From Flavobacteriaceae bacterium UJ101 (lineage in GTDB: Bacteria > Bacteroidota > Bacteroidia > Flavobacteriales > UJ101), in contig CP016269.1 in NCBI GenBank assembly GCA_001880285.1, forward strand, positions 2,180,501-2,244,500: a stretch of DNA of 64,000 nt. The letters run 5' to 3'. The stretch's first letter is position 1. The number at the start of each line of letters is the position of its first letter. The notes under the pieces are model-generated. The model saw only the letters and a program-made list of their open reading frames with translations. It was not told the DNA's origin and searched no databases. Below, piece by piece: positions 5,547-56,114 of the stretch. The position numbers were made by a program, and so were the translations under genes.

Positions 5547-6851
5547 ATGGGAAGTTTTAGAATAAAAGGGGGAAAGAGTTTAAAAGGAGAAATTCAACCA
5601 CAAGGAGCTAAAAATGAAGTATTACAAATTTTGTGTGCCGTTTTATTAACTCCAGAACCAGTAAGAATAAAAAATATCCCTGATATAGTAGATGTCAATA
5701 AACTTATTGAAATATTGAGTAATCTTGGCGTGAAAATCATGAAGAATGGAAAGGGAGATTATACTTTTCAAGCAGATGAAGTTCATACTGAATATATGAC
5801 CTCAAAAGAATTCCGTAAAGATGGGGCCTCACTAAGAGGGTCGATTATGTTGATTGGACCTATGCTGGCACGATTTAAAAAAGGTTATATGCCAAAGCCA
5901 GGAGGAGATAAAATAGGCCGTCGACGTTTGGATACACATTTTGAAGGATTCATTAAATTAGGAGCCCAATTTCGTTATAATAAAGATGAATTATTTTACG
6001 GAGTAGAAGCTGATCATTTAAAAGGAGCTTATATGTTATTGGATGAGGCTTCAGTTACAGGAACAGCTAATATTGTGATGGCAGCCGTTTTAGCCGAAGG
6101 GAAAACCACTATTTATAATGCTGCATGCGAACCTTACTTACAACAATTGTGTAAAATGTTAGTTCGTATGGGAGCTAAGATTTCAGGTATCGGATCGAAC
6201 TTACTTACAATTGAAGGGGTAAAAGAATTGAATGGAACAGAGCATACGGTATTACCTGATATGATTGAAATTGGTTCTTGGATTGGTTTAGCAGCTATGA
6301 CGAAGTCAGAAATTACCGTAAAAAATGTAAGTTGGGATAATTTGGGTGTTATTCCGAGTGTATTTGCTAAATTGGGTATTACCATAAAACGTAAAGGAGA
6401 TGATATTATAGTACCACGTCATGAAAATTATGAAATACAAAAATTTATTGATGGATCTATTTTAACCATTGCAGATGCGCCTTGGCCAGGTTTTACACCC
6501 GATTTATTAAGTATTATTTTAGTAACGGCTTGTCAAGCAAAAGGAACAGTATTAATTCATCAAAAAATGTTTGAATCTCGTTTGTTCTTTACCGATAAAT
6601 TAATTGATATGGGGGCACAAATTATTCTGTGTGATCCACATCGTGCAACAGTAGTTGGTTTAAACCATGAAACGGCTTTAAAAGGTTCTACAATGACTTC
6701 CCCTGATATTCGAGCAGGAATATCACTTTTAATAGCTGCACTTTCAGCAGATGGGACTTCTGTTATACAAAATATTGAACAAATTGATCGTGGATATGAA
6801 GATATAGACGGTCGTTTGAAAGCCATAGGAGCAGATATTGTGAGAATGTAA
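5547..6851 (+). CDS. murA: UDP-N-acetylglucosamine 1-carboxyvinyltransferase
   Basis: MurA transfers enolpyruvate from PEP to UDP-GlcNAc, the first committed step of peptidoglycan synthesis in the cytoplasm. At 434 residues it is slightly longer than the E. coli enzyme. The catalytic Lys22-Asn23 pair (GAKNEV) is present, as are the terminal DRGYEDID and the PDMIEIGSW segment. The active-site loop reads PGGDKIGRRRLDTH: Asp121 occupies the place of E. coli Cys115, the residue alkylated by fosfomycin. Enzymes with Asp here are catalytically active and resistant to the drug. The start codon abuts the DUF4290 stop, with no gap. Confidence 0.95.
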   Translation: MGSFRIKGGKSLKGEIQPQGAKNEVLQILCAVLLTPEPVRIKNIPDIVDVNKLIEILSNLGVKIMKNGKGDYTFQADEVHTEYMTSKEFRKDGASLRGSIMLIGPMLARFKKGYMPKPGGDKIGRRRLDTHFEGFIKLGAQFRYNKDELFYGVEADHLKGAYMLLDEASVTGTANIVMAAVLAEGKTTIYNAACEPYLQQLCKMLVRMGAKISGIGSNLLTIEGVKELNGTEHTVLPDMIEIGSWIGLAAMTKSEITVKNVSWDNLGVIPSVFAKLGITIKRKGDDIIVPRHENYEIQKFIDGSILTIADAPWPGFTPDLLSIILVTACQAKGTVLIHQKMFESRLFFTDKLIDMGAQIILCDPHRATVVGLNHETALKGSTMTSPDIRAGISLLIAALSADGTSVIQNIEQIDRGYEDIDGRLKAIGADIVRM

Positions 6852-6860
6852 TGATGATTT

Positions 6861-6899
6861 GAAAATAAATAAAACCATTCCGAAACAAGTTCGGAATGG
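6861..6899 (-). terminator. Terminator for RNase P RNA, formed by a palindromic repeat
   Basis: A perfect 10-bp stem (arms 6875-6884 and 6890-6899, loop ACAAG) is followed on the minus strand by TTTTATTTATTTT. The T-tract side shows it ends rnpB; it may also stop read-through from convergent murA. The stem core matches a repeat found twice inside rnpB. Confidence 0.7.
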
Positions 6900-6908
6900 A
6901 AAAAAATA

Positions 6909-7222
6909 TAAATCTATAAGCCGGATTCTGTAAAGAGGAAAAAATAAACCCCTTTTCTTGTCATTTATCTAGCTCCGACATTACTATCGAAATCAAAACT
7001 GCCTACCCTCCAACTTTGGGCGAGTAACCCTCGAACGTTGGTATACATGGCATTGCACCGCATAGAGTTTACCTGATTTCACTACAGCCTAACTGTACAT
7101 CCTTTCTGTTGCACTAGTCCTATCCCGAAACAAGTTCGAAATGACGGGTGTTACCCGCTATGTTACTCTGTGGTGTCCGGACTTTCCTCTCCGAAATAAA
7201 TTCGAAGCGACAAGACGATTTA
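6909..7222 (-). ncRNA. rnpB: RNase P RNA, bacterial type A
   Basis: The catalytic RNA that removes 5' leaders from pre-tRNAs. Diagnostic conserved segments are seen on the minus strand: GAGGAAAGTCCGGAC near the 5' end (first half of P4) and ACAGAATCCGGCTTAT at the 3' end (second half of P4 and 3' terminus). The ends are set by the P1 helix, TAAATC at 7222-7217 pairing with GATTTA at 6914-6909, and they fit a promoter box at 7229-7236. The RNA is about 314 nt. Two hairpins, at about 7121-7147 and 7188-7208, resemble the repeat in the terminator and sit in the P12 and P3 positions. Confidence 0.9.
7121..7147 (-). repeat. Palindromic repeat copy within rnpB (P12 region)
   Basis: The plus strand reads TCCCGAAACAAGTTCGAAA followed by TGACGGG. 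It shares CGAAACAAGTTCG with the terminator copy at 6875-6899. The trailing ATGACG is the usual tail of a family of small palindromes scattered through flavobacterial genomes. Confidence 0.6.
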
Positions 7223-7228
7223 CAATTA

Positions 7229-7236
7229 CAAAGATA
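7229..7236 (-). promoter_or_regulatory. -7 box of rnpB
   Basis: Minus-strand TATCTTTG ends 7 bases before the predicted 5' end of RNase P RNA. That is the spacing expected between the -7 box and the start of transcription. Confidence 0.7.
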
Positions 7237-7381
7237 TTCTTTTTTTAATGAATATATCGTAAGTGGATACCTATTTAATCCAAGTTTATGAGTTGTGCAA
7301 CTTCCATATAGTGTATTTCATCGATAACTTTTATTTACTATAATATATAATTATATATATGTGTAAAATAAATATATTATT

Positions 7382-8143
7382 ATGAAAAATTTTATTAAAG
7401 AATTTACTAGGCTATTTTTAATAATAACCATTTTACTAGGGATAACATTATTTCATTCTTGTAGTAGTGATGATACTACGGGAGAAGAAAGAACAAATTT
7501 GAGTATTCAAGAAGCATCGAAGACATTAGAACCTGTTTCTGATAATACTATTTATTTTTCAGAAGTTGAGGAAGAAGTTGGAGAAAAGAAAAGTAGTAGA
7601 ACGAATGAATATTATGATTATTTTATTATTAACCAATCAGAAACTAATTGGTTTTATGCCAATAGTGATCAATTAGATGATTTTTGGGGACGTTATGTAG
7701 ATGTTAAAATTAAACATGGAGGATATGACTTTAATGCTTATTCGTACCCCAGTAACGCTTACATTTGGTTTGGAGAAGCATTTTATAGGCACTTTCGGTA
7801 TAACGTAGGGGGAAATGGTGTCGCCGTAACGGGAATGTTAGCTCATGAATATGCACATCAGGTACAATGGAGATTAGGGATTGGGAATTATAATTATACC
7901 CTTTATCATGAATTACAAGCAGATGCTCTAGCAGGCTATTTTATGGGGCATAGGAGTGGTGAAAACTTAAATTGGGATGAAGTTAAATTTGTTGCTCATG
8001 GACAAGGAAGTGTAGCAGGAGGAGATCATGGAACGTACAACCAACGATATAATGCAGTTCAAATAGGGTATAATATAGCCAAAAATAATCCAAATATTTC
8101 GGCACAAGAATTTAAAAGACAATTTGATAATTGGTTTTATTAA
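7382..8143 (+). CDS. YpfJ-like zinc metallopeptidase lipoprotein
   Basis: A 253-residue protein with a lipoprotein signal peptide (lipobox LFHSC, Cys27). The catalytic region has HEYAH at 155-159 (HExxH zinc motif with Glu156). Seventeen residues after it comes HELQADALAGYF at 176-187, where Glu177 would be the third ligand. It ends with DHGTYNQRYNAVQIGY. This order (HExxH, ELQAD, THGS-QR) matches the YpfJ neutral zinc metallopeptidase family (PF04228). The anchor differs from the usual YpfJ transmembrane helix. The lipobox is followed by SSDD, and acidic residues just after the Cys often favour surface export in Bacteroidota, so the protein may face outside. Substrate unknown; it is a single-gene unit. 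Confidence 0.75.
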   Translation: MKNFIKEFTRLFLIITILLGITLFHSCSSDDTTGEERTNLSIQEASKTLEPVSDNTIYFSEVEEEVGEKKSSRTNEYYDYFIINQSETNWFYANSDQLDDFWGRYVDVKIKHGGYDFNAYSYPSNAYIWFGEAFYRHFRYNVGGNGVAVTGMLAHEYAHQVQWRLGIGNYNYTLYHELQADALAGYFMGHRSGENLNWDEVKFVAHGQGSVAGGDHGTYNQRYNAVQIGYNIAKNNPNISAQEFKRQFDNWFY

Positions 8144-54345: not shown

Positions 54346-56040
54346 ATGCAACTATCAGAACAAGAAATTGTACGAAGAGAAAAATTAAACAAAATCAAAG
54401 CGTTAGGAATTGATCCGTTTCCAGCAGCTTTATATCCTGTAAACCACTTAACTTCTGAGATTAAGGAAAAATTTGAAGAAGGTAAAAAAGTGATTGTTGC
54501 AGGACGTTTAATGAGTCGTCGTATCCAAGGATCGGCCTCCTTTGCTGAAATTCAAGATAGTGAAGGACGTATTCAAGTATATTTTAATCGTGATGAAATA
54601 TGCACAGGAGAAGACAAATCGAAGTATAATGACCTGTATAAAAAGTTGCTAGATATTGGTGATATAATTGGAATTGAAGGAGAATTATTTACCACAAAAG
54701 TGGGTGAAAAAACGATTTTAGTTAAAGAGTTTACTTTATTAACAAAATCGATTAAACCTTTACCATTACCTAAAGTTGATGCCGAAGGAAATATTCATGA
54801 TGGATTTACAGATCCGGAAATGCGTTACCGTCAGCGTTATGCTGATTTGGCTGTAAATCCACATATCAAAGATATTTTTGTAAAACGTACGAAAATGTTT
54901 AATGCCATGCGTCAGTTTTTTAATGATGCAGGCTATATGGAAGTTGAAACACCTGTGTTACAGTCAATTCCAGGTGGAGCGGCTGCACGTCCGTTTATTA
55001 CACATCATAATAGTTTGAATATACCATTGTACATGCGTATTGCAAACGAATTGTATTTGAAGCGATTAATTGTAGGTGGTTTTGATGGTGTATATGAGTT
55101 TTCTAAAAATTTCCGTAATGAAGGAATGGATCGTACGCATAATCCTGAGTTTACCGCTATGGAAATCTATGTAGCCTATAAAGACTACAACTGGATGATG
55201 GATTTTACAGAGAAACTATTAGAATATGTAGCTGTTGCTGTAAACGGAACTACAGAAGCGACTTTTGGAGAACATAAAATTGATTTTAAAGCACCATACA
55301 AGCGTATTACAATGCGAGATTCTATTTTAGAATTTACAGGCTTTGATATTTATGGAAAATCGGAAGAAGAATTGCGTGAAGGAGCTAAATCTCTAGGTAT
55401 TGAAGTAGATGAAACGATGGGGAAAGGAAAATTGATTGATGAAATATTTGGAGAAAAATGTGAAGGAAATTATATCCAACCTACTTTTATTACGGATTAT
55501 CCAAAAGAAATGTCACCATTAACTAAAATGCATCGTGATAACCCTGATTTGACAGAACGTTTTGAATTAATGGTTTGTGGAAAAGAAATAGCGAATGCTT
55601 ATTCTGAGTTAAATGACCCAATTGATCAACGAGAACGTTTTGAAGCACAGGTAAAATTAGGAGAAAAAGGAGATGATGAAGCGATGTTTATCGATCATGA
55701 TTTTTTACGTGCATTAGAATATGGAATGCCTCCTACATCTGGTTTGGGAATCGGTATGGATCGTTTAATTATGTTCTTAACGAATAACCCTTCTATTCAA
55801 GAAGTATTGTTCTTCCCACAGATGAAGCCTGAAAAGAAACCTTTAGCAATTAGTGATGAGTCAAAAGGAATTTTGGAGATCTTAAAAAAAGAAGAAAAGA
55901 TGGGGTTAGATGCGTTAAAAGCACAATCGGGTCTTTCCAATAAAAAATGGGATAAGTCGATCAAAGAATTAACCAAAAATACACTAGCTAAAGTAGAAAA
56001 GACAGAAGAAGGACTTTTTGTAGAGTTAATAAGTAGTTAA
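54346..56040 (+). CDS. lysS: Lysyl-tRNA synthetase, class II
   Basis: A 564-residue enzyme that charges tRNA-Lys. The N-terminal OB-fold anticodon-binding domain (about 50-145; KVIVAGRLMSRRIQGSASFAEI) precedes the class II core: FFNDAGYMEVETPVLQSIPGGA (motif 1), FSKNFRNEGMDRTHNPEFT (motif 2) and GLGIGMDRLIMFLTNN (motif 3). After PQMKPEKKP about 65 extra residues follow (ILEILKKEEKMGLDALKA...), absent from E. coli LysS but seen in Bacteroidota. Monocistronic. Confidence 0.96.
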   Translation: MQLSEQEIVRREKLNKIKALGIDPFPAALYPVNHLTSEIKEKFEEGKKVIVAGRLMSRRIQGSASFAEIQDSEGRIQVYFNRDEICTGEDKSKYNDLYKKLLDIGDIIGIEGELFTTKVGEKTILVKEFTLLTKSIKPLPLPKVDAEGNIHDGFTDPEMRYRQRYADLAVNPHIKDIFVKRTKMFNAMRQFFNDAGYMEVETPVLQSIPGGAAARPFITHHNSLNIPLYMRIANELYLKRLIVGGFDGVYEFSKNFRNEGMDRTHNPEFTAMEIYVAYKDYNWMMDFTEKLLEYVAVAVNGTTEATFGEHKIDFKAPYKRITMRDSILEFTGFDIYGKSEEELREGAKSLGIEVDETMGKGKLIDEIFGEKCEGNYIQPTFITDYPKEMSPLTKMHRDNPDLTERFELMVCGKEIANAYSELNDPIDQRERFEAQVKLGEKGDDEAMFIDHDFLRALEYGMPPTSGLGIGMDRLIMFLTNNPSIQEVLFFPQMKPEKKPLAISDESKGILEILKKEEKMGLDALKAQSGLSNKKWDKSIKELTKNTLAKVEKTEEGLFVELISS

Positions 56041-56114
56041 TAGTTGTGCAAACATGTCTTCCTGAATTTTTTAGGATCTAGGATAAATAAAAATAGTTTT
56101 TAATAAATTATATA

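Follow-up and report, generated by a model that had tools for sequence, protein, structure and literature searches.

REP palindromes of the CGTC-tagged type probably lie in variable helices and the terminator of a flavobacterial RNase P RNA gene

Dispersed palindromes of the CGTC-tagged REP type have probably come to lie in variable helices of the RNase P RNA gene (rnpB) of this genome and in the terminator of that gene. The tagged palindromes of the genome would have supplied the copies: one would be the P12 helix, another would very probably form the P3 apex, and a third, having no tag, would be the hairpin of the terminator. Such repeats may be tolerated because P3, P12 and P19 are outside the catalytic core, and because a transcribed REP folds into a hairpin, which is needed at these positions anyway. 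Transposition, or gene conversion between hairpins, could bring such copies into rnpB. We infer that the event ran in the direction of the gene and that the enzyme functions normally. In the following, the window is the whole 64-kb stretch of DNA that was analysed.

The rnpB gene gave the sole match of its kind in the genome, which consists of a single 3.07-Mb contig. This match spanned the entire Rfam class A model (positions 1–367), its score standing against a cut-off of 100 bits (Table 1). The 13-mer CGAAACAAGTTCG was found exactly at 6881–6893, in the terminator, and at 7126–7138, in P12, both sites being inside or adjoining rnpB. A third site was not present in the window, also when one mismatch was allowed, and the shuffle expectation was 0.04. 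Both exact occurrences were as stated in an earlier note on this DNA, made from the sequence alone. Alignment to the class A model placed the second of them at the apex of the P12 position and the sequence CCGAAATAAATTCGAAG (7191–7207) at the P3 position, in agreement with the same note.

On the RNA strand, the P12 position reads CCCGTC-ATTTCGAACTTGTTTCGGGAT-AGGAC. Its CGTC tag (7146–7143) consists of native RNase P letters, and is followed by an 8-bp stem starting with AT and by the 5-nt loop CUUGU. The P3 letters are CTTCGAATTTATTTCGGAG. Both stems contain G-U pairs, two in P12 and one in P3, with the pairing kept in the RNA and lost in the DNA. By folding, neither hairpin was unusually stable (z −1.0 for P12 and −0.6 for P3). 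The flank ATGACG had been described as that of dispersed palindromes, and this was correct only in part. Its GACG is ordinary RNase P sequence, CCGTC preceding P12 in many relatives without the repeat, and therefore the repeat-specific part is AT plus the palindrome only.

Table 1 The rnpB gene of the window and its repeat-bearing parts (R1, covariance model of the palindrome family, see text).
Feature	Position	Strand	Evidence
rnpB, RNase P RNA class A	6901..7226	(-)	RF00010 175.4 bits, E 6e-55
P12, full CGTC-REP	7121..7146	(-)	R1 26.5 bits, E 1e-4 in 64 kb; 1 mismatch to tagged pattern; placed via Rfam alignment
P3; AATTTATT loop type of the same REP family, probably a diverged copy	7190..7212	(-)	Shared 15-mer; R1 11.5 bits
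Intrinsic terminator; hairpin 6899-6875 is a tagless REP palindrome	6865..6899	(-)	R1 28.8 bits at 6877-6897, E 2.3e-5; terminator scan; fold

The repeat belongs to a family dispersed over the genome, as a genome-wide count confirmed. A wider pattern (YGTCAT-N3-GAACTTGTTTC-N3-ATC, up to 3 mismatches) matched 37 places, versus one for the reversed pattern used as control. Both rnpB copies were among the 37, P12 with one mismatch and the terminator with three. The exact 13-mer CGAAACAAGTTCG occurred 6 times in the genome and the exact 11-mer GAAACAAGTTC 16 times, each with 0 occurrences when reversed; the sites of the 11-mer were hairpins with GAT and ATGACA flanks. From 27 copies of the family, the rnpB copies excluded, we built the covariance model R1. 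The tag was TGTC or TGTT in 25 of the model copies, CGTC in one and GGTC in another. Their loops have 5 nt, and there are two main types, CTTGT and TTTAT. The stem columns A5 T6 and A24 T25 were invariant, and are the same in P12; column 26 was a C in nearly all copies, and the letters after it were mixed. Twelve neighbouring inverted pairs (within 80 bases) were found, 40–60 bases apart, with the tags outside in eight and inside in four. No open reading frame of more than 56 codons covered the centre in 28 of the 30 listed places, one of the 30 being an rnpB copy.

Two further places in the genome were recorded. At 56055–56078 of the window, just past an open reading frame ending at 56040, a REP-like hairpin gave the third-best R1 match (21 bits, E 0.003). 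A stretch of 17.5 kb elsewhere (L387, G000:C1:773000-790500) carried nine REPs of at least 39 bits, with groups of three near 13.4 and 14.7 kb.

When R1 was run over the window with filters off, the terminator ranked first and P12 second. The P3 score had an E-value of 1.4 in the 64 kb and of 0.07 in a 3.3-kb locus. P3 also has an exact 15-mer, CGAATTTATTTCGGA, in common with the genome's own REPs of the TTTAT type, which was reached in 0 of 500 shuffles, and by the length of its exact match to these REPs it was 5th to 6th among 209 P3 stretches. We regard P3 as probably a diverged REP copy, judging from these sequence matches. The earlier claim of a diverged copy at this place was thus right as to position and kinship with the family's letters, and its 11.5 bits keep it at probable. 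For P12 and the terminator, an exact match of 11 bases to a REP arose in 2 and 6, respectively, of 500 mononucleotide shuffles. The case for these two copies therefore rests on R1, which sees the tag and the pairing.

The terminator hairpin was the sole terminator-like site in 6800–7400 (shuffles, mean 0.3). It has a 10-bp stem followed by TTTTATTTAT, reading CCATTCCGAACTTGTTTCGGAATGG and then the same run on the RNA strand, and folds with −14 kcal/mol (z −4.8). It has neither a CGTC nor a TGTC tag. Palindromes of the family that lack the tag and have T runs also directly follow a tRNA gene (L388) and a protein gene (L389), scoring 27.6 bits each. Together with rnpB, they predict a REP acting as terminator at three loci of this genome, in line with the reuse proposed before. 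A model scan of the genome's own tmRNA locus gave no REP copy.

P12 and the terminator share the exact 13-mer, identically oriented, and the window has no further copy of it. This would also fit a local event, in which template switching between two hairpins separated by 220 bases copied the terminator hairpin into P12, or P12 into the terminator, only one of them having come from the dispersed family. We consider such an event unlikely. The two stems differ beyond the 13-mer, and the tag present in P12 is missing in the terminator. In addition, there are relatives with a REP in P12 but with no match of at least 16 bits directly downstream of rnpB.

To return to the insertion of dispersed REPs, rnpB was found in the relatives in 59 of 60, 210 of 219 and 30 of 30 genomes of three sets, and in 29 of 31 and 14 of 18 genomes of two genus sets; this sample is not neutral, as the 30 genomes were selected because they had many repeats or scored low for RNase P, and the two genus sets because of a known case. 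The first three sets gave 211 loci, including that of the window, of which 209 were parsed and 2 were not; no P12 was obtained from 20 of the 209. Among the 209 parsed genes, only that of the window (L007) had the P12 core GAACTTGTTTC between AGGAAAGT and ACAGAAA, and only it had the window's P3 14-mer. Recurrence of the same P12 and P3 sequences in relatives, which the earlier note would take, in relatives lacking the repeat family, as a sign of conserved RNA structure, was thus looked for and not seen in the parsed genes, and their absence there means that neither is conserved RNase P sequence. The exact core occurred 9 times in the 209 genes (in 7 of them), versus 0 for its reverse, and 14 times versus 1 with one mismatch.

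R1 was then applied to 199 loci of relatives, 52 of the 252 rnpB loci being left out. Gene borders were set by our own anchors, with long P3s in view, and one of 32 rows of at least 16 bits was dropped as a duplicate (the same place of L127 on the other strand). Of the 31 matches of at least 16 bits, 25 were in rnpB, though rnpB made up 15.8% of the bases. They belonged to 19 genes and fell in P3 (13), P12 (4) and P19 (8), with none in the rest of the gene. P19 is our label for the variable helix before ACAGAA, which we take to be this helix from the Rfam layout. Among 100 loci not chosen for repeats (except L193, which had no match), 8 genes had an R1 match. P3, P12, P15–17 and P19 are called unalignable in PMC4264200. 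In three relatives (L128, L129 and L132) the P3 of ~85–95 letters was a whole REP pair with facing arms, one of each loop type, like the pairs between genes.

Several rnpB genes carried other palindromes. P19 was enlarged as well in L128, L129 and L132, with two palindromes in a row in L132, and in L129 and L132 a second palindrome, CGATAACTATCGGGA, was near the P15–P17 part according to the Rfam alignment. L130 and L131 had a long P3 with other palindromes beside GAGAT, probably of another REP group. In L072, the hairpin CTCCGATTT(T)ATCGGAG was common to P3 and P12 of one gene. Closely upstream of rnpB, L129 had a match to the Flavo-1 RNA (RF01705) at 1230–1373.

Two wider scans were also made. 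The best 80 matches listed in a MurA scan included Flavobacteriaceae of up to 80% identity; rnpB was near murA in three of these 80 loci, and the repeat in none. A scan of the GTDB 220 collection, possibly without the own or very near records, with a P12-palindrome pattern gave 0 matches. As this pattern required GGGTAAY and so missed, for example, L374 (GGCTAAC), we draw no claim of uniqueness from it.

The window's genome is the sole member of its genus and family among the genomes searched, and contrasts within a genus come from other genera. In genus g66, the exact core was found in P3 of 3 of 29 species, and most of the others had a plain hairpin of ~20 letters. In genus g105, P12 had the exact core in 1 of 14, the sister palindrome CAAACTCGTTTTG in 3 of 14, CCCGATAGTTATCGGG in 1 of 14 and other hairpins in the rest; in L373 it was a plain, GNRA-capped P12. 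These patterns indicate that the P3 and P12 sequences are replaced wholesale between congeneric species. That a mobile-looking repeat was accepted into variable helices, as first suggested from the sequence, is supported by the R1 ranks, by P3, P12 and P19 of the relatives and by these differences within genera; its mobility we infer.

Copy number in the genome was weakly linked to the occupancy of rnpB. Of 25 genomes chosen because their rnpB has a palindrome, 15 had at least four tagged REPs, versus 6 of 14 comparators; only 0–2 were found in 10 of the 25, versus 8 of the 14. In one of the 25 (G623), the P12 palindrome was of different sequence. Six genomes (G290, G513, G395, G345, G615 and G559) had an rnpB palindrome and, at the stringency used, no tagged REP at all. 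Occupancy does not simply track the present copy number; a given case may go back to an old insertion, to a family since lost or to convergence.

The six genomes would also be in keeping with convergence throughout, by which, in an AT-rich genome, the hairpins of P12, P3 and the terminator would come to resemble one another by drift, GAA-CTTGT-TTC being simply favoured. P3, P12 and P19 are hypervariable, with unrelated hairpins at these places in many relatives, and shuffles did yield the 11-base matches mentioned above. However, the P12 match covers tag, stem and loop at its E-value for 64 kb, the terminator reproduces the stem and loop of R1 exactly, and the reversed controls gave 0 against 16 and 1 against 37. 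All this makes convergence, in our view, quite improbable. The reverse direction, in which the REP family grew from a terminator or an RNase P hairpin of this lineage, is very unlikely. Tagless copies at the terminators of three loci would suit it, but five phyla, Bacteroidetes among them, are reported to have CGTC-tagged REPs (PMC3733652), and tagged copies with this pattern are common in further genera of the order.

The acquisition of REPs by rnpB has partial precedents. According to PMC3733652 (Di Nocera, De Gregorio and Rocco 2013), CGTC-tagged REPs have a YGTC tag at one end, a stem of 8–9 bp with A-T as its first two pairs, a loop of 4–5 nt and a short unpaired tail, mostly CCA. They occur in many copies, mostly between genes and mostly as head-to-head dimers with the tags outside, and no transposase is given as known for the group. 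The present family has the same YGTC tag, A-T pairs, high copy number and mostly intergenic position, with an 8-bp stem, a 5-nt loop and inverted pairs mostly with tags outside. A CCA tail is not evident in it. It differs in that the copies considered here are in rnpB, whereas those which that paper lists within genes are in protein genes. By word search, its main text mentions neither RNase P nor rnpB nor Flavobacter.

Dispersed palindromic repeats within RNase P RNA are known from Rickettsia, where palindromic elements are found in tmRNA and M1 RNA (Ogata 2002, as reported in Delihas 2007, PMC2229807). These are elements of 105–146 bp in a reduced alphaproteobacterial genome, and the likeness is one of description. 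In the present case, which concerns Bacteroidota, the units have ~26 bp, and they are found in the P3, P12 and P19 helices of many genera as well as in a terminator. Heterocyst-forming cyanobacteria reportedly have short tandem repeats of the heptamer type in rnpB. There too, a genomic repeat family makes a variable stretch of the RNase P RNA longer, but with tandem repeats and not with tagged palindromes. We found no report of REPs in flavobacterial RNase P RNA in the open-licence literature. The kind of event is thus known, and new are the REP family, the phylum, the recurrence within genera, the three helices and the whole REP pairs as P3.

One could go further and see in the RNase P RNA a standing landing site for REPs, its own letters imitating the tag, with insertion steered by the tetranucleotide beside the hairpin. 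Insertion steered in this way is part of the IS200/IS605 type of chemistry. In the window and in 4 of 4 P12 matches of the relatives, all oriented the same way, the CGTC tag comes from the conserved CCGTC that precedes P12. The conserved ACAGAA that follows P19 has TTCTGT as its complement, and 8 of 8 P19 matches are in the opposite orientation. We nevertheless hold this idea to be doubtful. For one orientation, the native letters already add to the score; P3 has matches in both, and the P19 copies may have one common ancestor. Nor is the mimicry at P19 clean, since read letter by letter the relatives have TGTT, TGTA or others before the palindrome. If the idea were true, an essential RNA would be a lasting record of active REP families.

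The structure of the variable helices in RNase P RNA is commonly taken to drift freely. The sequences of P3, P12 and P19 should be regarded with caution, as unfit for rnpB phylogeny in this order. If these helices are repeatedly refilled from dispersed palindromes, mobile-looking DNA would be the source of part of the structural diversity of an essential ribozyme, and rnpB would be a small, universal place in which to read the history of REPs and their insertion preference.
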